DNA of 46,443 nt from positions 1 to 46,443 of the forward strand of contig JAFXFG010000004.1 in NCBI GenBank assembly GCA_017520675.1. The letters are read 5' to 3'. The notes under the pieces were generated by a model. It worked only from the letters and a program-made list of their open reading frames with translations. It did not search any database and was not told the DNA's origin. The position numbers were made by a program, and so were the translations under genes. Shown one piece after another: positions 1,810-46,439 of the stretch (positions are counted from its first letter, which is position 1; every line of letters starts with the position of its first letter). The stretch is from Alphaproteobacteria bacterium (lineage in GTDB: Bacteria; Pseudomonadota; Alphaproteobacteria; Rs-D84).

Positions 1810-2046
1810 AAAAAATTAACCGCCATAGGAATAGCGGTCGGGGAGTTGCTAAATCAGTATATCATTGACTCCGTCCGCCTTTGGTGCATGCACCTGTTGT
1901 ATAGCGGACAGCTCCCCGACATTTTGTCAGGGTTCTTAAAATACAGTGCAAATACAGGAAACAGCCGTCGGATTACGACACATTGTTATATTTGCACCGG
2001 ATATACTGGGCCTAGCACAGCCCCGAACCAAATTCCCATTTGGTTC
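1810..2046 (-). ncRNA. Structured leader RNA, copy A (unrecognised family)
   Basis: Read on the minus strand from 2046. P1 is a 9-bp hairpin closed by a GGGA tetraloop (2025-2046). GGGGCTGT and AGGCC follow. P2 is an 11-bp helix (1989-1999 with 1944-1954) enclosing the conserved core GTGTCGTAATCC (1970-1981). P3 is GTCGGGGAG with CTCCCCGAC (1912-1920 and 1837-1845). It encloses P4 (CTGTCCGC/GCGGACGG), which carries conserved ATACAACAG and a small GGTGC/GCACC hairpin. The end is a hairpin ACCGC...GCGGT (1819-1838) and a T-rich run to 1810. Every helix has a counterpart in the copy at 45920-46170 despite sequence changes. It does not match T-box, cobalamin, tmRNA, RNase P or 6S landmarks that I know. 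The downstream ATG is at 1786. Confidence 0.75.
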
Positions 2047-2859: not shown

Positions 2860-5262
2860 TTACCCCTGTATATTTTGTGCCACAACAAAGTCTAATTCAT
2901 TGCCGACTTGAATATTGTTTGCGCGCGCTGCGGATTTTATCAGCCCATGTAAAACATCTGGTACATCATTTGTGATGGTCAGCATTTCCAGTTTTGCGCC
3001 ATTTCCAACCTTGCGTTCTGTGCGCAATCCACGAATATTTTTCAGCACTTCCAACGCGACATCCATTGTTGAAACATCTGTATCATATTCAGGCACAACT
3101 GTTGGGTATGCAGTCAAGTGCAGTGTTTCGCCACCTTCGAATGGTTTATATATTTTCTGCCACAATTCTTCGGTCAAGAATGGAATAAATGGTGCATACA
3201 GACCGATTATTGCGCGCAGAACGGTATACAACGTCCATTGTGCAGACAATTTTGATTCTGCGCTATACTTTTCAGGTGCCCAGAATCTGTCTTTGATAAA
3301 TTCCAAATATTGGTCGCAGAAAATATCCCAAAAGAAAGTATCAATTGCTGCGCGTGAATTGTAGTTATCATATCTGTCCAGATATTTTCGTACTTCTGCG
3401 ACTGTTTTGTTAAGTTCTGATAACACCCATCTATCTTCGATAAATCGTTCTGATACAGGTATTTGCCTTGCGCAATCAGGTTCAAAATCAGACAGATTCA
3501 TCAGGGTATACTTTGACGCGTTCCATAATTTAGTCAGCAGTTTAGAACCGCGTTTCACCTCGTCATCAGAATAACGAATATCTGTTCCGATTGGTGCGGT
3601 TGCAATCCAGTACCGCAACGCATCTGCCCCAAACTTTTCAACTGTATCCAGTGGGTCTGTGCCGTTGCCCTTGGTCTTTGACATTTTTTGACCTTTGGAA
3701 TCACGCACCAGTCCATGGAAATTAACGGTATGAAATGGTACTTTGCCCATAACATATATTCCCATCATAATCATACGTGCAACCCAAAAGAATATGATAT
3801 CTGCACCTGTATACAACAGGTCTGTTGGGTAATATTTTTGCAACTCTAACGTATCTGTTGGCCATCCAAGTGTTGAAAACGGCCACAGTCCTGATGAAAA
3901 CCAAGTGTCCAGCACATCAGGGTCGCGTGTCAAAGATTTTCCACCTGCCATTTTAATGGCGGCTTCTTCTGATTCTGCGACATATACCTTGCCATCTTCA
4001 TCATACCATGCTGGTATATGGTGGCCCCACCATAATTGACGTGATATGGTCCATGGTCTAATATTTTTCATCCATGCCATGAACAGGTTATAACGATGTT
4101 CTGGCATAAATTGAACTTCACCATTTTCGACAGCTTTGATTGCAGGAATTGCCAATTTTTCCGCATCAACGAACCACTGGTCGGTCAGGTATGGTTCAAC
4201 CGGTACCTGTGCGCGTTCAGAATAAGGTGTTGGAATCATCTTATCTTCGATTTTTACCAGTAATCCAGCACCTTCGATATCTGCAACGATTGCATCGCGT
4301 GCTTTATATCTGTCCATTCCGCGATATTTTTCAGGCACAACCGGATTATCATTTAACTTTGCATCAGGTGTTAAAATGCAAACAGGTGTCAGGTTGTGTC
4401 TTTGTCCAACCTCCCAGTCGTCAAAGTCATGTGCAGGTGTAATTTTCACTGCCCCTGTACCTTTTTCTGGGTCTGCGTGTTCGTCTGCGATAATTGGAAT
4501 CTCGATATTTGTCAGTGGAATAATTGCCTTGCGCCCAATCAAGTGTTTCAACTTTTCGTTTTCTGGGTGAACTGCAATTGCTTGGTCGCCGAACAAGGTT
4601 TCTGGTCGTGTTGTTGCGATTTCAATAACACCGCCATCAACCAATTGATAATTGAAATAATAAAATTTACCTTTTTCTTCGCGTGTTTCGATTTCCAAAT
4701 CAGAAATCGAAGTCATCTGTTTTGGGCACCAATTCACCAATCTTTTTTCACGATAAATCAGTCCTTCGTTATACATTTTCACAAACAACTTAGTTACTGC
4801 ATCAGACAGTCCTTGGTCCATTGTAAATCTTTCACGCTTCCACACTGGGCTGGCCCCCAAGATATGCAATTGGTTCATAATTTGGCCACCCTTTTCAGAC
4901 TTCCATTTCCATGCTGCATCTAACTTTTCCTGCAAAGACAAACTATGTGGATTAATTCCGCGCTTTGACAGGTCGCGTTCCACCAACAGTTGTGTTGCAA
5001 TTGATGCATGGTCTGTCCCAGGTTGCCACAACACATCAAAGCCTGACATACGTTTATACCTGCAAACGATATCTGTTAGGACATTATCCAGTGCGTGCCC
5101 CATATGTAAATTACCGGTTACATTTGGTGGTGGCATCATGATGCAAAATGCAGGCTTATCAGATTTTACATCATTATCCCAGAAATTATTATTATCCCAA
5201 AATTCTTGTATTTTTGTTTCGATTTCGCGTGGATTGATATTTTTACCTAGTTCGATATTCAT
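2860..5262 (-). CDS. valS: Valyl-tRNA synthetase
   Basis: 800 residues; a class I aminoacyl-tRNA synthetase that attaches valine to tRNA-Val in the cytoplasm. The HIGH motif appears as HMGH (residues 53-56) after PPPNVTGNL, and KMSKT near residue 530 is the KMSKS loop. The editing domain follows the first catalytic half (GDQAIAVHPE, TPAHDFDD). It is shorter than the roughly 950-residue enterobacterial enzyme because the C-terminal coiled coil is missing or very short. The ATG giving MNIELGKN is chosen over an upstream in-frame start because the extra 53 residues are Cys/Phe-rich and fit no known ValS, and AAGG lies just upstream. It heads an operon with the thioesterase. Confidence 0.95.
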   Translation of the reverse strand: MNIELGKNINPREIETKIQEFWDNNNFWDNDVKSDKPAFCIMMPPPNVTGNLHMGHALDNVLTDIVCRYKRMSGFDVLWQPGTDHASIATQLLVERDLSKRGINPHSLSLQEKLDAAWKWKSEKGGQIMNQLHILGASPVWKRERFTMDQGLSDAVTKLFVKMYNEGLIYREKRLVNWCPKQMTSISDLEIETREEKGKFYYFNYQLVDGGVIEIATTRPETLFGDQAIAVHPENEKLKHLIGRKAIIPLTNIEIPIIADEHADPEKGTGAVKITPAHDFDDWEVGQRHNLTPVCILTPDAKLNDNPVVPEKYRGMDRYKARDAIVADIEGAGLLVKIEDKMIPTPYSERAQVPVEPYLTDQWFVDAEKLAIPAIKAVENGEVQFMPEHRYNLFMAWMKNIRPWTISRQLWWGHHIPAWYDEDGKVYVAESEEAAIKMAGGKSLTRDPDVLDTWFSSGLWPFSTLGWPTDTLELQKYYPTDLLYTGADIIFFWVARMIMMGIYVMGKVPFHTVNFHGLVRDSKGQKMSKTKGNGTDPLDTVEKFGADALRYWIATAPIGTDIRYSDDEVKRGSKLLTKLWNASKYTLMNLSDFEPDCARQIPVSERFIEDRWVLSELNKTVAEVRKYLDRYDNYNSRAAIDTFFWDIFCDQYLEFIKDRFWAPEKYSAESKLSAQWTLYTVLRAIIGLYAPFIPFLTEELWQKIYKPFEGGETLHLTAYPTVVPEYDTDVSTMDVALEVLKNIRGLRTERKVGNGAKLEMLTITNDVPDVLHGLIKSAARANNIQVGNELDFVVAQNIQG

Positions 5263-31319: not shown

Positions 31320-31603
31320 TTTAACTTTTAACCAAAACGGTTTTTTATAACCGTCTCGTGGAAACACGAAAAACGCCGCCCACCTAGGGGAAACCCTAAG
31401 TGGGCACAAAGGCGTAAAAACCAAACAAAAAAACAAGATACAAAAAGCGTGTCAAAAAAAGGAGATTATTAAACAAATAAGAGTGTATTTTAATTTAGCA
31501 AAATAAGATACGACTACAGAATATTGTTATTCAGAATTTGTTTAAAAATCTCTTTTTTTTACCGCTTCGTTTGCAAAACGCACAGAATAAAGGATTAAAA
31601 CCG
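31320..31603 (+). promoter_or_regulatory. rplL-rpoB intergenic region with stacked hairpins
   Basis: 284 bp without a gene. Three consecutive hairpins: ACGGT/ACCGT (about 31338-31354), CTCGTG/CACGA (about 31355-31370), and a long one, ACGCC-x-CCCAC-x-TAGGG with CCCTA-x-GTGGG...GGCGT (31373-31425). No T-run follows, so this fits a processing site or partial attenuator like the one between rplL and rpoB of Escherichia coli. The remaining 160 bp are AT-rich leader. Confidence 0.6.
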
Positions 31604-34600
31604 ATGGCAGTTATCCAGAAACTAAGAAAATCTTTTGGGAAAAGTTTTTTGCAAACTCCGCTTCCTGATTTAGTTGAAATACAATATAATTCCTACAAGG
31701 ATTTCTTGCAGGCTGATGTTGATCCCCAGAATCGCAAAAACATGGGGTTGCAAAATGTATTTTCTTCAATGTTTCCAATCAAAGACTATGCCGGCATTGC
31801 CGATTTGGAATTTGTTGAATACACATTAGACAAACCTGTCTATAATGTAAAAGAATGCATGTTGCGTAATATGACATATTCCAGCAAGTTGAAATTGAAG
31901 CTGAGATTGATTTTATGGGACATCGCCGAAGATGGCAAAAAAACTTTGCGTGATATCAAAGAACAAGAAATATTTATGGGCGAAGTACCATTAATGACAG
32001 AGCGCGGCAGTTTTATTGCCTCTGGTGTTGAACGTGTTATTGTATCCCAGATGCATCGCGCCCAAGGTGTTGTTTTCGCAACCACCAAAGAAGCCAAGAT
32101 TGCAGGCAATCCTGTAACATACACAGCGCGCATTATTCCAGAACATGGTTCTTGGATTGATTTCGAAGAATCCAAAGGCATTATCTATGTCCGTATTGAT
32201 CGTCGTCGCAAGGTTCCAGCAACTGTATTATTGCGTTGCCTACCTGCTGCCGAAGATGAAAAGAAATGGATTGCTGACCCACGCAAGACAACAATTCGTG
32301 GTATGACAGATACAGAAATATTGTCTGCGTTCTACAAGCGTATTCCGTTGTCATTTAATGGCAAGTTGTGGACCGGCGACACCGCCAGTTTTGAAGGCTT
32401 AGATAAATATCGTTTGAACTATGATTTAATTAATCCAAAAGACAAAGCGGTTTTGGCATCCAAGGGCGACAGATTAAATGCAAAGCGTATGAAAAAGATT
32501 ATGGACGCGTCCAAGAAATTTGGAATCTTACCAGAATCTTTGGTCGGCGAATATTTGTTTGATGCTGTAACAAATGGCGAAGAAGTTGTTTTCCCAGCTG
32601 GTACAGAAATAACCGAAGAAGTCTTGAACGATTTGGACAAAATGAACATCAAAGAAATCAGTTTGATTTCCATTGATAATGCCACTATTACTGCGCATAT
32701 GCGTAATACATTGATGGCAGACAAAACAACAAATCGTGAAGAAGCATTAATTGAAATATACAACATCATTCGTCCTGGCGAACGTCCAACACTAGAAGCG
32801 GCAATAAATCTGTTTATGCGTCAAGGCTTCGAAGCGACATATTATGATTTGTCTGCTGTTGGTCGTTTCAAAATGAACAAGCGTCTAAAAATCGACTCTG
32901 GCAAGAAACCAGAAGACGAACGTTTATTGACCAAGGCGGACTTCTTGGCGGTATTAAAGACATTAACAAACATTATTGACCGCAAAGATACTGTTGATGA
33001 TATTGACAACCTGTCCAATCGTCGTGTTCGCACAGTTGGTGAATTGCTGGAACAGAATTTCCGCACAGGTATGGTTCGCATTGAACGTTTGGTTCGCGAA
33101 AGCCTATCATCGCCAAACATTGCGAATATGCAACCCCAGGATGTTATCAATGTAAAGCCATTGATGTCCTTGATATCTGAATTCTTGGGTACATCGCAGT
33201 TATCGCAGTTTATGGACGCGTACAATCCATTGTCAGAATTAGAGCACAAGCGTCGTATTTCTGCATTAGGACCTGGTGGATTGAATCGTGAACGCGCAGG
33301 GATTGATGTCCGCGACGTTCATCCAACGCACTATGGTCGTCTGTGTCCAATTCACACCCCCGAAGGTGCAAATATTGGTTTGATTAATCACATGGCATCA
33401 TATGCGCGTGTAAATCCATATGGTTTCATTGAAACACCGTACTATGTTGTTGAAAACAGTCGCATCACAGACAAGATGATATATTTGACTGCTGATGAAG
33501 AACTGGGGCACAAAATTGCACAGGGTAACACCCCGACAACAAGCGCAGGTGTCTTGGCCGAAGATATGGTAACGGCGCGTGTTGATGGTGAATTTACCAT
33601 GGTTCCAAAAGAAGAAATCGACTTAATCGACGTAGAACCACGTCAGGTGGTATCGATTGCAACTGGTTTGATACCATTCGTTGAAAACGACGACGCGAAC
33701 CGTGCTTTGATGGGTTCAAACATGCAACGTCAGGCTGTTCCGCTATTGCGTGTTCAGGCACCATTAGTTGGTACAGGTATTGAACGTGAAGTTGCGCGTG
33801 ATTCCCGCACTGGTAAGGTTGCGAAACACAGTGGTATTGTTGAATCTGTTGACGCGAACCGCATTGTGGTTAAATGTATGAACAGTCGCAATGTTGTAAC
33901 AGGTGTAGATATTTACAACCTGGAAAAGTTCGAACGTTCCAACAGTGAAACGATTATTCACCAAAAACCATTGGTCAAGGTTGGCGATCGTATTTCTGCG
34001 GGCGACATTATTGCGGACGGTTCATCGATGAACTATGGTGATTTGGCACTGGGTCGCAATGTATTGGTTGCCTTTATGCCATGGCGTGGATATAACTACG
34101 AAGATTCAATTGTGATTTCTGAAAAGATTTCGCGTGATGATGTATTTACATCTGTAAAAATCGTAGAAAAAGAATTCAAGGTTCGTGATACCCAATTGGG
34201 GCCAGAGGCGCTAACCCGCGACATACCAAACGTTGGTGAAGAAGCCTTAAAGAATCTGGACGAATCTGGTATTATCTATGTTGGCGCGCGCGTGAAGCAG
34301 GGCGACATTTTGGTTGGTCGTGTAACACCAAAGTCAGAAACATTGTTAACCCCAGAAGAAGCCTTGTTGCGTAATATCTTTGGTGAAAAAGCATTGAATG
34401 TAAAAGACACATCACTGCGTGTTGGTCCAAACGAAGAAGGTACAGTTATTGGTGTGAATGTTTTGACGCGTCATGGTGTCAAGAAAGACGAACGCACTCA
34501 AATGATTGAACTGCAAAAAATCGAAGCCATCAACAAAGATCGTGAAGAAGAAATTGCGATTATAGAAAAAGGCTTTGCGGATCAAGTATTCCAGATTGCT

Positions 34601-35740
34601 GAAAATATGGTTATTGATTCTGGTACTGGCAGTTTAAAGCCATTTATTGGCAAGAAATTGACTGCAGAAGTATTCGAAGGCATTCGTCCATCAGACTTAA
34701 AGAAATTGGTTGTTTCTGATAAAGAAGCCCAGACCAAGATTGAAGAACTGCGTGAACAACACTTGATAAAGTTAAAGCAGTTAAATGAAAAGGCTGATGC
34801 AGAAGTTTCCAAGGCAACAGAGAGTAACTCATTGAATGCGGGTGTGTTAAAAGAAGTAAAAGTGTACATTGCGCACAAGATGAAATTACAGCCTGGGGAC
34901 AAAATGGCGGGTCGCCATGGAAACAAGGGTATTGTATCCAAGGTTGTGCCTGTTGAAGATATGCCATATTTACCAGACGGGACACCGGTTGACATTGTGT
35001 TGAATCCGTTGGGTGTGCCATCGCGTATGAATATTGGTCAGATATTGGAAACCCACCTTGGTATGGCTGCGCGCACACTAGGTGCCCAGATTGGTGCTGT
35101 TTTGGACGAAGTCAAGGCCAAACGTGCTGTTACAGACGATTTGCGTTCCGTAATGGGCAAGGTTTACGGCAAAGAAACAGCGGACAAGTTGGAAAAGATG
35201 ACAGATACGGATGTGCGTGCACAGGCTGCGTTATTGCGTGATGGTGTGCCGATGGCGACGCCTACATTTGACGGTGCCACTGCCGAGGACATTCGTGATA
35301 TGTTAAAGATGGCAGGTCTGCCAGAAACAGGTCAGTTTGATTTGTATGACGGTATGACTGGCGAAAAGTTTGCCCGTCCTGTAACTGTTGGTGTTATGTA
35401 CATGCTGAAACTGCATCACTTTGTTGATGAAAAGATTCACGCACGTTCTGTTGGTAATTATTCATTAGTAACACAACAGCCATTGTCTGGTAAGGCCCAT
35501 ATGGGTGGTCAGCGTTTGGGTGAAATGGAAGTTTGGGCACTTGAAGCCCATGGTGCTGCACACTTGTTGCGTGAAATGTTGACGGTTAAGTCTGACGACA
35601 TTACTGGCCGTAACAAGATGTATGAATCCATCATCAATGGCAGCAACGACATCCAAACTGGCACGCCTGAGGCATTTAACGTACTTGTACGTGAATTGCG
35701 CGGGTTGGGCTTAGCGATGACACCAAAAAAAATTGATTAG
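31604..35740 (+). CDS. rpoB: RNA polymerase beta subunit
   Basis: 1378 residues, usual for alphaproteobacteria. The rifampicin region reads SQLSQFMDAYNPLSELEHKRR then ISALGPGGL, followed by DVHPTHYGRLCPIHTPEG. The C-terminus has GGQRLGEMEVWALEAHGAA. Forms the catalytic core of RNA polymerase with beta-prime. The ATG at 31604 after AAAGGA gives the normal start MAVIQKLRKSFG; an in-frame start 22 codons upstream is AT-rich leader. Not fused to rpoC. Compared with the Escherichia coli sequence it has changes at the positions equivalent to 517, 518 and 525 beside the rifampicin pocket. Confidence 0.97.
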   Translation: MAVIQKLRKSFGKSFLQTPLPDLVEIQYNSYKDFLQADVDPQNRKNMGLQNVFSSMFPIKDYAGIADLEFVEYTLDKPVYNVKECMLRNMTYSSKLKLKLRLILWDIAEDGKKTLRDIKEQEIFMGEVPLMTERGSFIASGVERVIVSQMHRAQGVVFATTKEAKIAGNPVTYTARIIPEHGSWIDFEESKGIIYVRIDRRRKVPATVLLRCLPAAEDEKKWIADPRKTTIRGMTDTEILSAFYKRIPLSFNGKLWTGDTASFEGLDKYRLNYDLINPKDKAVLASKGDRLNAKRMKKIMDASKKFGILPESLVGEYLFDAVTNGEEVVFPAGTEITEEVLNDLDKMNIKEISLISIDNATITAHMRNTLMADKTTNREEALIEIYNIIRPGERPTLEAAINLFMRQGFEATYYDLSAVGRFKMNKRLKIDSGKKPEDERLLTKADFLAVLKTLTNIIDRKDTVDDIDNLSNRRVRTVGELLEQNFRTGMVRIERLVRESLSSPNIANMQPQDVINVKPLMSLISEFLGTSQLSQFMDAYNPLSELEHKRRISALGPGGLNRERAGIDVRDVHPTHYGRLCPIHTPEGANIGLINHMASYARVNPYGFIETPYYVVENSRITDKMIYLTADEELGHKIAQGNTPTTSAGVLAEDMVTARVDGEFTMVPKEEIDLIDVEPRQVVSIATGLIPFVENDDANRALMGSNMQRQAVPLLRVQAPLVGTGIEREVARDSRTGKVAKHSGIVESVDANRIVVKCMNSRNVVTGVDIYNLEKFERSNSETIIHQKPLVKVGDRISAGDIIADGSSMNYGDLALGRNVLVAFMPWRGYNYEDSIVISEKISRDDVFTSVKIVEKEFKVRDTQLGPEALTRDIPNVGEEALKNLDESGIIYVGARVKQGDILVGRVTPKSETLLTPEEALLRNIFGEKALNVKDTSLRVGPNEEGTVIGVNVLTRHGVKKDERTQMIELQKIEAINKDREEEIAIIEKGFADQVFQIAENMVIDSGTGSLKPFIGKKLTAEVFEGIRPSDLKKLVVSDKEAQTKIEELREQHLIKLKQLNEKADAEVSKATESNSLNAGVLKEVKVYIAHKMKLQPGDKMAGRHGNKGIVSKVVPVEDMPYLPDGTPVDIVLNPLGVPSRMNIGQILETHLGMAARTLGAQIGAVLDEVKAKRAVTDDLRSVMGKVYGKETADKLEKMTDTDVRAQAALLRDGVPMATPTFDGATAEDIRDMLKMAGLPETGQFDLYDGMTGEKFARPVTVGVMYMLKLHHFVDEKIHARSVGNYSLVTQQPLSGKAHMGGQRLGEMEVWALEAHGAAHLLREMLTVKSDDITGRNKMYESIINGSNDIQTGTPEAFNVLVRELRGLGLAMTPKKID

Positions 35741-35841: not shown

Positions 35842-38800
35842 ATGAGCAATATGTTGCAAAAGATATTTGGACAAATTGAAAACAAAGAGCAGTTTGATGC
35901 CCTGCGTATTACGATTGCGTCCCCCGAAGAAATTTTATCTTGGTCCCATGGTGAAGTTAAAAAACCAGAAACCATTAACTATCATTCAATGAAGCCAGAG
36001 GCCGAAGGTCTGTTTTGTCAGCAAATTTTTGGTCCAGTCAAAGATTATGAATGTGCCTGTGGTAAATACAAAAGAATAAAGTATCGTGGTGTTGTTTGCG
36101 AACGTTGTGGGGTAGAGGTTGGATCTGCCTCGGTTCGTCGTGAACGTATGGGGCACATTAAACTTGCGATGCCTGTTGCGCATACTTGGTTTTTGCGTGA
36201 AGGTAAAATCGCCACATTATTAAATAATCTGCCACAAAAGAAATTGGAACAGGTTATTTCCTATGATGCCTACATTGTAATTGAACCAGGATTGACTAAT
36301 CTGAAACAATACGATGTTATCAGCGAAGACGAATATCAGGCTGCGGTTGAAGAATTTGGTGCTGATGCATTTCGTGTTGGTATTGGTGCCGAAGGTATTC
36401 GTGCGATAATATCTAATCTGGATATGGGTGATGAACGCACTCGTTTGCGTGCGGAATTATCTGAAACAAAATCAGAAACCAAACGTAAATCATTAATCAA
36501 GCAGTTAAAATTGGTCGAAGCATTTTTAGATTCTAAGACAGACCCATCTTGGATGTTGCCGGATATCATACCTGTAATTCCACCAGATATGCGTCCATTG
36601 GTTACACTTGATGCTGGACATGTTGCGGCATCTGACTTGAACGATTTGTATCGTCGTGTCATTATCCGTAACAATCGTTTAAAGCGTTTTATGGAAATGC
36701 ACGCACCAGACATCATTGTACGCAATGAAAAGCGTATGTTACAAGAAGCGGTTGATTCACTGTTTGATAACGCGCACAAGGCCCGTCCAATGGTGTCTCA
36801 GAATCGTCGTCCATTGAAATCATTATCTGATTCTTTGCGCGGTAAGTCTGGCCGTTTCCGTATGAATATGTTGGGTAAACGTGTTGACTACTCTGGGCGT
36901 TCTGTTATTGTGTCTGGTCCAACATTGAAATTGCATCAGGTTGGTTTGCCCAAGACGATGGCGCTTGAATTATTTAAGCCATTTGTTTTCGCGCGTTTAT
37001 TGGCTGGTGATTACGCAAACACATTAAAAACAGCCCGCAGAATGGTTGAAAACGGCGAAGATGTTGTGTGGGAAATTTTGGAAAACGTTATTTACGAACA
37101 TCCTGTATTGTTAAATCGTGCACCATCGTTGCACCGTTTGTCGTTATTGGCGTTTGAGCCTGTATTAATCGAGGGCAAGGCAATCCGTCTGCATCCATTG
37201 GTATGTTCTGGCTTTAATGCTGACTTTGACGGCGACCAGATGTCTGTACACGTTCCAATTTCATTAGAAGCACAACTGGAAGCGCGCACATTAATGTTAT
37301 CATCGAATAACGTATTGTCGCCTGCGAACGGTGCGCCTATGATTGTTCCATCACAAGACATGGTTTTGGGTGTTTACTACATTTCATTGATTAATGGTGA
37401 ACACAATGAAAAGTCGCCACGTTTTGCGAATATGGACGAAGTGAAATTGGCATTAGAAAACAAGACAATTACATTACATACACCAATTGTTGCGCGTATC
37501 AAGGGCAAGACCTATCAGACAACAGCGGGTCGTATGATATTGGGTGAATTGTTGCCTGATTCAGAAAATATGCCATTTGATTTGGTTAACAAGGTTATGC
37601 CACGCAGTGCGATTAAGTCATTATTGGCAACAACATATGAACGTTGTGGCGACAAAGCGATGATTTTACTTGCAGACGCATTGAAAGACACTGGCTTTGA
37701 ACAGGCTGCACGCAGTGGTATTTCGATTGGTTATGACGACATCGTTATTCCATCAGAAAAGAAAGACATCATTGCCCAATCTGAAAAAGCCGCAGAAGAA
37801 ATTGAAGAACAATATCAAAACGGTTTGTTGTCGGGTGGCGAACGTTATAACAAGTTGATTGACTTGTGGCATGGCACAACCGACAAATTGGGTGATATGG
37901 CGTACGCTGCATTGGGCAAGAGCAATGGCGACAATTGGAATTCAATTTACATGATGGCTTTATCCGAAGCCCGTGGTTCCAAGCGTCAGATTCAGCAGTT
38001 GGCTGGTATGCGTGGTATGATGCAGAAACCAGACGGTTCTATTATCGAAGTTCCAATTATTTCGAACTTTAAAGAAGGTCTGACCATGTCAGAGTACTTT
38101 ACATCAACCCACGGTGCGCGTAAAGGTATGTCGGACACTGCGCTTAAAACGGCCGAGGCTGGATATCTAACCCGTCGTCTGGTTGAATTGGCACAGAACA
38201 CAGTTATTACAGAACACGATTGCGGCACGACAGAATTCATTACTGCCAAACCTGTATATCAGGGTTCAACACTGTCTGTTCCACTGGGTGATGTTGTATT
38301 GGGACGCACAGCAGCACATGACATTGTTCATCCAATCAGCAAAGAAGTCATTGTACCTGCTGGCGAATTAATTACCAAGGCCGCTGCCAAGACAATTAAT
38401 GAATCTGGTTTGCCAAGTGTTGATGTACGCAGTGTTCTGACATGTTGTTCGGATGGTTTGTGTGCGAAATGCTATGGTATGGATTTGTCGCGTAATGCGT
38501 TGGTTCATGTTGGCGAAGCGGTTGGTGTTATTGCGGGTCAGTCTATTGGTGAACCTGGAACGCAGTTGACATTGCGTACCTTCCACATTGGTGGTATTGC
38601 ATCTGGTGGTGCGGAAAGCCACTTTATCGAAGTTCCTGTTGCGGGTCGCATAAAATTATCTGGTGTGGATACGATTAAGAACAGTGCAGGTCGTATTGTT
38701 GTATTAAGTCGCAATGGAAAATTAACTGTTGTTGACGAAGGCGACAAAGAACTGTTCAGCAGCAACCTGCCATATGCATCAATGTTGATTGTGAACGATG

Positions 38801-39951
38801 GCGACACAGTTGAAAAGGGTGCCAAGGTTGCAGAATGGGATCCATATTCCAACACAATTATTGCGGAAAAAGACGGTATTGTTAACTTTAATGACTTGAT
38901 TGAAAATGTTTCATACCAAGAAGAAGTTGATTCTATGACAGGTATCGTTTCTCGCAAGGTTATAAATTGGAAAACAAACACCAAAAAGGCATTAAAGCCA
39001 GCAATCACATTGGTTGATGCCAAGGGTAATGTTATCAATCTGGGTGGCAAGAAGATTGCAGAATATCTGTTGCCTATATACTCAGTATTGAATGTTGCCA
39101 ATGGTGACAAGGTTGTTGCGGGTGATATTTTGGCGCGCATACCTGTTCAGGCAAAGCGTACAGGCGACATTACTGGTGGTCTGCCACGTGTTAACGAATT
39201 GTTGGAAGTTCGTCGTCCAACAAATCCTGCCTTGTTGGCTGAAATCGATGGTACAGTTGACCTAGAAGATTCTAAGTCCAAGATAATAATCCGCATTGAA
39301 CCGACTGACGGCACAGCGCCTGTTGAATATGCAGTGCCCAAGGGTACAAACCTGTTGGTTCGCAGTGGTGATTTTGTTCGCAAGGCTGACAAATTGGTTG
39401 ATGGCGATCCAGTCCCACAAGATATCTTGCGTATTTTGGGTCAAAAGGCATTGGCAACATTTATGGTTGATCAAATCCAGCAGGTTTATCGTCTGCAAGG
39501 CGCGATTATCAATGACAAGCATATTGAAATTGTTATTCGTGAAATGACCCGTCGTGTAGAGATAACAAATCCGGGCGACACAGGCTTCTTGATTGGTGCT
39601 GTTGTTGACAGGGTTGACTTTGACGAAGAAAATGCACGTGTTGCACGCGAAGGTGGCAAAATTGCCGAAGCCTCTCAGGTTTTGGTTGGTTTGACCCGCG
39701 CGTCATTGACATCTCGTTCATTTATCTCTAACGCATCGTTCCAACAGACGACCAAGGTTCTGGTTGATGCCGCGATAAGTGGTTCGACTGATAAACTGGT
39801 TGGTATCAACGAAAACTTGATTGTTGGTCGTTTGATTCCAGTTGGTACAGGTGCCTATGTTCGTCGTGTTCGTGAAATTGCCAAAGAAGAAGAAAAAGCA
39901 GAACGTTTGGCACGCGAAGGCAACGGTCAACAGCAGTTGTTGGACATCTAA
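35842..39951 (+). CDS. rpoC: RNA polymerase beta-prime subunit
   Basis: 1369 residues, usual length. N-terminal zinc finger [17 protein letters not shown], active-site NADFDGDQM (the Asp triad binding Mg), second zinc site [12 protein letters not shown], and C-terminal switch/jaw regions ([16 protein letters not shown]). ATG after AAAGGAG. Confidence 0.98.
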
Positions 39952-45883: not shown

Positions 45884-45912
45884 TTGCAATAAATCCACAA
45901 TACTGATATAAT
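45884..45912 (+). promoter_or_regulatory. Promoter of structured RNA copy B
   Basis: TTGCAA (45884-45889), exactly 17 bases, perfect TATAAT (45907-45912) with upstream TGA (extended -10). The first RNA helix starts 7 bases later at 45920. Confidence 0.7.
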
Positions 45913-45919
45913 TCAAAAT

Positions 45920-46170
45920 GAACCAGATGGGAATCTGGTTCGGGGCTGTCGTAGGCCTAGTTTATCCGATGCAAATATGTACACGCATGTATTATGTGTC
46001 GTAATCCAAGTGGTGAAAAATCTCCGTATTTGCATCGCTATCTTGATTATGCCCTGACTGAATAAGTCGGGGGGCTGTCCGCCATACAACAGGGGTAACC
46101 CGAAAGCGGACAGAATCATTGATAAACTGATTTACGAACTCCCCGACCGCTGATTTTCATCGCGGTTTTT
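45920..46170 (+). ncRNA. Structured leader RNA, copy B (unrecognised family)
   Basis: P1 45920-45928 with 45933-45941 around GGGA. GGGGCTGT and AGGCC follow. P2 is 11 bp (45967-45977 with 46027-46037) around the conserved core GTGTCGTAATCC (45996-46007) plus a variable insert. P3 is GTCGGGGGG (46066-46074) with CTCCCCGAC (46139-46147). Inside it, P4 is CTGTCCGC (46075-46082) with GCGGACAG (46106-46113), enclosing ATACAACAG and a GGG/CCC hairpin. The conserved strand TGATAAACTGATTTA lies between P4 and P3. The final hairpin is ACCGC (46146-46150) with GCGGT (46162-46166) and TTTTTT, sharing two bases with P3. Same plan as copy A on the minus strand. The gene downstream starts 45 bases after the T-run. 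Confidence 0.8.
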
Positions 46171-46214
46171 TAACAAAAAAATTAATAAATAACAGGTTAC
46201 AGGGGGGGCTAAAA

Positions 46215-46439
46215 ATGCATAAAAAACTTTTAACAATTTTCTTAATCTGCGCGCCAATATCGGCAATGGCGAACATTCCATCAACCGAATATGTCCAGCA
46301 ACAAATCGCATCCCAAATCGCAACCGCCGTATCATCTAAGGTTGACACATCGGCATCCGCGAATCAGACAATGGCGGGAACTTATACTGTAACTGGTACG
46401 CTTAACGCACCAACACCAACCCTGCCAACGGCGGAATAA
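46215..46439 (+). CDS. Small secreted protein behind structured RNA copy B
   Basis: 74 residues. Residues 1-19 are a signal peptide (MHKKLLTIFLICAPISAMA). The mature part begins NIPSTEYVQQQIASQ, is Ala/Thr/Ser-rich and ends in TGTLNAPTPTLPTAE then TAA. The GTL/TLP wording recalls the GTLP repeats of the protein at 269-1786. ATG follows AGGGGGGG at 5 bases. It may be a complete short surface protein or the intact front part of a longer one shortened by an early stop; the window ends 4 bases after the stop. Confidence 0.65.
   Translation: MHKKLLTIFLICAPISAMANIPSTEYVQQQIASQIATAVSSKVDTSASANQTMAGTYTVTGTLNAPTPTLPTAE

Follow-up and report, generated by a model that had tools for sequence, protein, structure and literature searches.

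A multi-copy structured leader RNA related to RF02221 lies upstream of surface-protein genes in gut Alphaproteobacteria

The C4 antisense RNA is laid out as a1b1, a'b' and a2b2 elements, and we use that naming here. The C4 RNA of P1/P7 is processed, its a'/b' loops contact the target mRNA, and b' occludes the RBS (PMC5320573). The Group 1 sRNAs of Acinetobacter baumannii are derived from C4 and are members of RF01695 (PMC5320573). RF02221, or sRNA-Xcc1, is distributed in Xanthomonas and in integron cassettes, Xylella and phages. Its publication describes an sRNA of 88 nt with mapped ends (PMC2996969).

The window analysed here, a stretch of 46,443 nucleotides, is one entire contig of a 1.1 Mb source genome in 46 contigs. 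Alignment showed that positions 45920-46171 on the forward strand and 1808-2046 on the reverse strand are homologous RNAs of about 240-250 nt with about 75-80% identity. An earlier note on this DNA had described two such copies on opposite strands, and both were present at those positions with the conserved strands that it had quoted. Two was too few, however, as the true number in the genome is 20 or more. A blastn search of the source genome gave 31 matches (best E 1e-134), about 13 of them full-length, and a covariance model gave 35 matches at E<=0.1, with 23 at E<1e-10. One locus, L012 (G000:C8:1596-1789), was a decayed copy without 3' strand and terminator, and further weak matches lay close to the ends of contigs C46, C26, C37, C38, C14 and C27.

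From 5' to 3', each window copy consisted of a promoter-like site, a fold with strong covariation and an intrinsic terminator, and a gene for a secreted protein came next. As had been claimed, each copy begins after a promoter-like site of the form TTGNNA-17/18-TATANT with extended TG, which is a consensus match only. On the forward strand, the site of copy 1 (TTGCAA-17-TATAAT, extended TG, 45884-45912) precedes a 252-nt RNA that was delimited by homology, covariation and folding, from its predicted 5' end through the terminator U-run (45920-46171). The P1 hairpin GAACCAGAUGGGAAUCUGGUUC (45920-45941), with three pairs changed on both sides, is followed by the 5' strand of a long-range helix, GGGG-cug-UCGUAGG-cc-UAGUUUAUC (45942-45966; covariation in helices 2-4), in which a1 is UGUCGUAGG and b1 is UAGUUUAUC. 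Copy alignment and pair counting placed the P2 hairpin CGAUGCAAAUA..UAUUUGCAUCG, with conserved inner segment GUGUCGUAAUCC, at 45967-46037 and the P4 hairpin CUGUCCGC..GCGGACAG, with conserved internal loop AUACAACA/GAAA, at 46075-46113. Between them lies the P3 hairpin CCCUGAC/GUCGGGG (46052-46072; alignment, pair counting and fold), whose 3' arm can alternatively pair with CCCCGAC at 46141-46147 in a closing stem of the RF02221 type. The 3' strand b'-a', GAUAAACUGA-UUUACGA-ACU-CCCCGAC (46121-46147), pairs with the 5' strand, as covariation and permutation tests indicate, and is the predicted antisense element. The intrinsic terminator ACCGC..GCGGUUUUUU (46146-46171) appeared in the fold as helix 9 and was missed by the consensus scan. 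A small secreted-protein gene, read from sequence (74 aa, MHKKLLTIFLICAPISAMA.., SD AGGGGGGG), follows at 46215-46439.

Copy 2 is arranged similarly on the reverse strand. Its promoter-like site TTGAAA-18-TATAGT (2053-2082, again a consensus match only) precedes the RNA at 1808-2046, defined by the same three kinds of evidence; the terminator stem (1818-1839) was a terminator scan match. The downstream gene (269-1786) encodes a 505-aa secreted protein, MRKFLTTGLFSAILGLAVGAPADA.., and 6 nt of its SD, CGGGAGU, also occur in the sequence complementary to the 3' strand of the RNA. The target genes in the window encode secreted proteins without a Pfam match (member 1 of A4) and not antirepressors. 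In the same genome, a minimal, diverged variant (L134, G000:C12:15629-15722) precedes the same small secreted-protein family as copy 1, and the SD of its gene, TCAGGAGG, exactly complements CCTCCTGA of its RNA.

The consensus fold of 12 full-length copies left 97.4% of cells paired and contained 19 pairs with two-sided changes. The covariation score was 0.322, compared with 0.155 for shuffled alignments and about 0.05 for slid partners, and the folding z was -6.4 for the 252-nt and 230-nt RNAs of the window. These results bear out the helices and covariation described earlier, including a P1 pair that is G-C in one copy and A-U in the other (columns 34/43) and a P2 pair that changes from A-U to G-C (columns 78/157). 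The earlier description nevertheless lacked the helix with the strongest covariation. In this long-range helix, in outline GGGG..UCGUA..UAGUUUAUC with GAUAAACUGAUUUACGA..CCCC, the 5' strand at 45942-45966 pairs with GAUAAACUGA-UUUACGA-acu-CCCC at 46121-46144. It holds most of the covariation, with 10 of the 19 two-sided changes in helices 3 and 4, where a'b' is complementary to the a1b1 of its own leader. The proposal of a duplicated, structured regulatory RNA before signal-peptide genes, with its structure under selection, is supported.

The segment GUCGGGG has two mutually exclusive partners, CCCUGAC in P3 or CCCCGAC, and both are nearly invariant across the 12 copies. Folded alone, the 3' domain adopted the RF02221 fold, with the GUCGGGG/CCCCGAC stem, P4 and a short AAUCA/UGAUU hairpin. 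Exclusive pairing of this kind counts in favour of the main rival reading, a sensor leader that acts in cis through its terminator. As a riboswitch or protein-binding attenuator, the RNA would bind a ligand or protein with the cores AUACAACA/GAAA in P4 and GUCGUAAUCC in P2, and whichever of two structures formed, the long-range helix or the GUCGGGG/CCCCGAC stem, would set terminator read-through into the surface-protein genes. Every aligned full-length copy does close with a terminator, the unpaired segments are highly conserved, and the genes that follow the RNA belong to one coherent class, that of surface proteins. A terminator placed between RNA and gene suggests a transcriptional step that would be superfluous in an antisense model, and it counts against an antisense reading. 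No known riboswitch family matched either window copy, even at E<=10, and we consider a sensor leader unlikely.

The earlier note had placed the RNA in no known class. This did not hold, since the 3' halves of both copies matched Rfam RF02221 significantly, though below the gathering cutoff of 53 bits: copy 1 scored 40.1 bits (46066-46155, E 8.5e-6) and copy 2 scored 30.0 bits (1829-1920, reverse strand, E 1.7e-3). The comparison with Rfam thus yielded a relative and not a member by score. No other Rfam class was found in either window copy, even at E<=10. Another copy from the same genus (L031) scored 57.8 bits, above the cutoff, and precedes a Rha gene, which is the phage-type arrangement. 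The window copies contain the three-helix RF02221 core with its AUACAA/GAA internal loop (model alignments 1-87 and the 3'-domain fold). They share with RF02221 the closing GGGG/CCCC stem, a hairpin that has AUACAA.A opposite GAA, a 3' strand that runs into CCCC-G-C, and a position upstream of a gene. They differ in length (about 250 nt), in having P1, P2, P3 and a terminator, and in preceding secreted-protein genes where RF02221 precedes antirepressor or symE genes. To C4 (RF01695; also c4-2, RF02944, and c4-a1b1) the likeness is one of plan, that of a leader before an antirepressor-type gene in which short a' and b' segments complement the upstream a1b1 and the target RBS; the complementarity to the RBS is strong in the Pseudomonadota loci, significant in the genus and weak for the two window copies. 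The hairpin cores differ, and RF01695 matched neither window copy at E<=10 nor any of 15 loci at E<=0.1. In contrast to C4, the window family is host-encoded and multi-copy, carries a terminator and has surface genes as targets.

We found RF02221 matches in 62 of 398 Pseudomonadota genomes. In most of the 30 Pseudomonadota loci inspected (L051-L080), the match took up the 3' half of a larger RNA, which consisted of a promoter, a 5' strand (e.g. GGGGCCGAAAACCCC..AAACAGCGG), a T-run hairpin and then the RF02221 part. The 3' strand of this part (CUGUUUGCGGUUUUCGG) complements the 5' strand of the longer RNA, and that 5' strand recurs in the RBS of the gene downstream (CCCCGAAAAGGAGCAAACAGCCATG). 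The two-block score of the 3' strand against its own 5' half was 15.3 versus 9.6 for permuted pairs (z 14.4), and against its own next-gene RBS it was 12.3 versus 8.0 (z 10.2). The Rfam model, built as an 88-nt sRNA, appears truncated at its 5' end, with the upstream 5' strand and T-run hairpin belonging to the same RNA. In phages and other Pseudomonadota, RF02221 seems to form one section of a longer leader in cis, antisense to the RBS of the gene that follows.

That gene is often an antirepressor gene (Ant, Bro-N, KilA-N, Rha, P22_AR), directly downstream of the RNA. Eight of 10 scanned downstream genes in other genomes encoded Bro-N, KilA-N, P22_AR_N or Phage_pRha (L066 among these fell under the Pfam cutoff). 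Among phages, the RNA precedes annotated antirepressors in Aaphi23, Rac-SA53 and IFTN1, and a KilA-N gene in 4316. These phage RNAs appear designed for pairing with the beginning of the message that follows. In the literature searched, no paper mentioned both 'sRNA-Xcc1' and 'antirepressor'. Two further loci were recorded. In a Xanthomonas plasmid (L294, NZ_CP021010.1), an RF02221-type RNA that shares 84.6% identity with L054 in its 5' part sits between two oppositely oriented ISXfu2 transposase genes. L060 has a sub-threshold c4-2 RNA match (2890-2958, reverse strand; 34.8 bits against a cutoff of 41) on the same strand as an RF02221-type RNA and about 1.3 kb upstream of it.

We then measured complementarity in the genus of the window with block and run scores, because loops and G+C made duplex-energy ranks uninformative for individual loci. 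Across 70 non-redundant loci, the internal helix between 5' and 3' strands showed cognate constraint at z 26, and the 3' strand against the start of its own gene gave z 3.4-4.8 relative to permuted pairs, in tests that take loci as independent and ignore tree structure. The start signal was z 4.6-4.8, with 4.4 when permuted inside GC strata and 3.7 when runs had to hold at least 2 G/C, compared with 1.5 and 0.4 for mirror controls and 0.2-1.1 for same-sense controls. It peaked at -10..+20 (z 4.0) and was <=2.0 in all other windows to +350. Single loci stood out, with 14 contiguous complementary nt in L098 (UUCGAAAAUCAGUA), 10 nt in L101, and 9 nt plus GGGG over the SD in L108. Start complementarity in the genus was weaker than in the phage and Pseudomonadota loci, yet significant.

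Other measurements count against an antisense reading. The two-block score in the genus reached z 2.2 only, and the variable part alone was not significant. Complementarity of the window copies to their own start regions was weak, at 5 nt for copy 1 and 6 nt (GGGAGU) for copy 2, and on these values we rejected strict pairing of the two copies with their own RBS. A whole-genome search for trans targets of their full a'b' (17-mers, <=2 mismatches) returned nothing beyond the RNA itself and a single site with 2 mismatches. Near-identical starts occur in paralogous genes with different a'b', so strict own-RBS pairing is not kept in those families.

Against the sensor leader, three results weigh together. 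The same core precedes phage antirepressors with strong RBS complementarity, which is unusual in metabolite sensors; the 5' and 3' strands diversify among the copies of one genome, whereas a sensor needs one solution only; and in the genus, the complementarity to cognate start codons reaches significance. The permutation tests favour the antisense mechanism over a riboswitch. The best reading is that the host has domesticated and amplified an antisense leader of phage type, giving a new variant related to RF02221, and we think it probable that the RNA is such a C4-like leader taken over from phage-type regulation. The mechanism is supported at the family level, and for the two window copies we infer it, because their own complementarity is weak and the two-block score is low.

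In the proposed mechanism, the promoter would yield a structured transcript of about 250 nt, which the intrinsic terminator would end just ahead of the RBS of the next gene. In this precursor, the 3' strand (b'a') would be held by long-range pairing to the 5' strand (a1b1), and in the alternative RF02221-like fold, with the GUCGGGG/CCCCGAC closing stem and P4, it could come free. The freed strand would then pair with the SD and start-codon region of read-through mRNA from the adjacent gene and lower its translation. The computation itself gave homology, fold, covariation, amplification, position, gene class and family-level cognate complementarity; from these we infer transcription, 3'-strand release, repression and a trigger. 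Since a1b1 and a'b' diverged together among the copies, each surface-protein gene may be addressed by an antisense sequence of its own.

The distance from the RNA, measured from the end of CCCCGAC, to the ATG was mostly 41-60 nt, which leaves little room for a second promoter. Downstream proteins looked secreted at 50 of the 70 non-redundant loci (71%) compared with 118 of 486 background ORFs (24%), where secretion was called by a simple hydropathy/lipobox rule and start codons were likewise assigned by simple rules. Downstream families in the genus included beta-barrel, YadA-anchor, PMP, outer-membrane, adhesin and glycosyltransferase, and no antirepressor was found by Pfam and PHROG phage families among the 66 downstream proteins listed. 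These neighbours bear on whether the RNA is instead an independent trans-acting sRNA that is encoded before surface genes by chance and regulates other mRNAs. The title of a 2011 paper reportedly calls sRNA-Xcc1 trans-acting, which counts for this alternative, as does its publication at 88 nt, and promoter plus terminator could give a complete sRNA. The near-constant spacing to the next gene's start, the enrichment of signal-peptide-like neighbours and the complementarity that ties the RNA to the start of the adjacent gene all speak against it, and we regard it as improbable.

Homologues, whose absence had been named as a refutation, were abundant. A covariance model of the 3' domain found the RNA in the genus of the window (135 of 141 genomes) and, across the whole order, in 174 of 201 genomes and 18 of 23 genera. 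Genomes carried 20+ copies per 1 Mb, and the top counts were at least about 27. Carriers in a pattern scan were Alphaproteobacteria, 'Rickettsiales' and 'Rhodospirillales' MAGs, many from the guts of ruminants or other herbivores. The Group 1 sRNAs of A. baumannii are alike in that a phage antisense-RNA scaffold occurs in many copies in one genome with divergent specificity regions (PMC5320573). Those belong to RF01695, whereas here an RF02221-type scaffold lies in cis before surface genes throughout an order.

So many copies per genome, several of them close to contig ends, could also reflect a repeat cassette whose fold serves DNA exchange among surface-gene loci and not RNA regulation. The RNA subtype does differ between homologous genes (L001, L014, L134), as it would after shuffling. 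Yet no transposase or shared boundaries were noted at the inspected copies, and copies that are only about 71-80% identical have kept their promoter and terminator as well as the RNA pairing. The G-U pairs that occur in the helices indicate selection at the RNA level, and we judge such a recombination module very improbable. The suggestion that the module is mobile likewise found no sign of a mobile element; the RNA behaves as a gene-leader family, spread through one bacterial order by duplication or shuffling.

Taken with the antisense reading, this distribution suggests that a host lineage turned a phage immunity switch into a large surface-protein regulatory system. More tentatively, and with rather less confidence than in the leader itself, we propose that in an order of gut Alphaproteobacteria with small genomes, an RNA that controlled phage antirepressors was domesticated and multiplied to tens of copies, that each surface-protein paralogue may have its own covarying antisense code, and that a gene-by-gene RNA switch might set which surface proteins are displayed. 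If true, this bears on surface variation in uncultured gut Alphaproteobacteria. RF02221, which has been regarded as an sRNA of 88 nt whose predicted targets lie in trans, gains a testable mechanism.

The exact motif also occurred in two records assigned to other phyla, L190 (CALVNY010000012.1, 'Clostridia') and L243 (BNVZ01000025.1, 'Endomicrobiia'), which may be misbinned alphaproteobacterial contigs or recent transfers. Elsewhere in the window, two adjacent open frames of about 1400 aa (31538-35740 and 35842-39951) resemble rpoB and rpoC in size and order.
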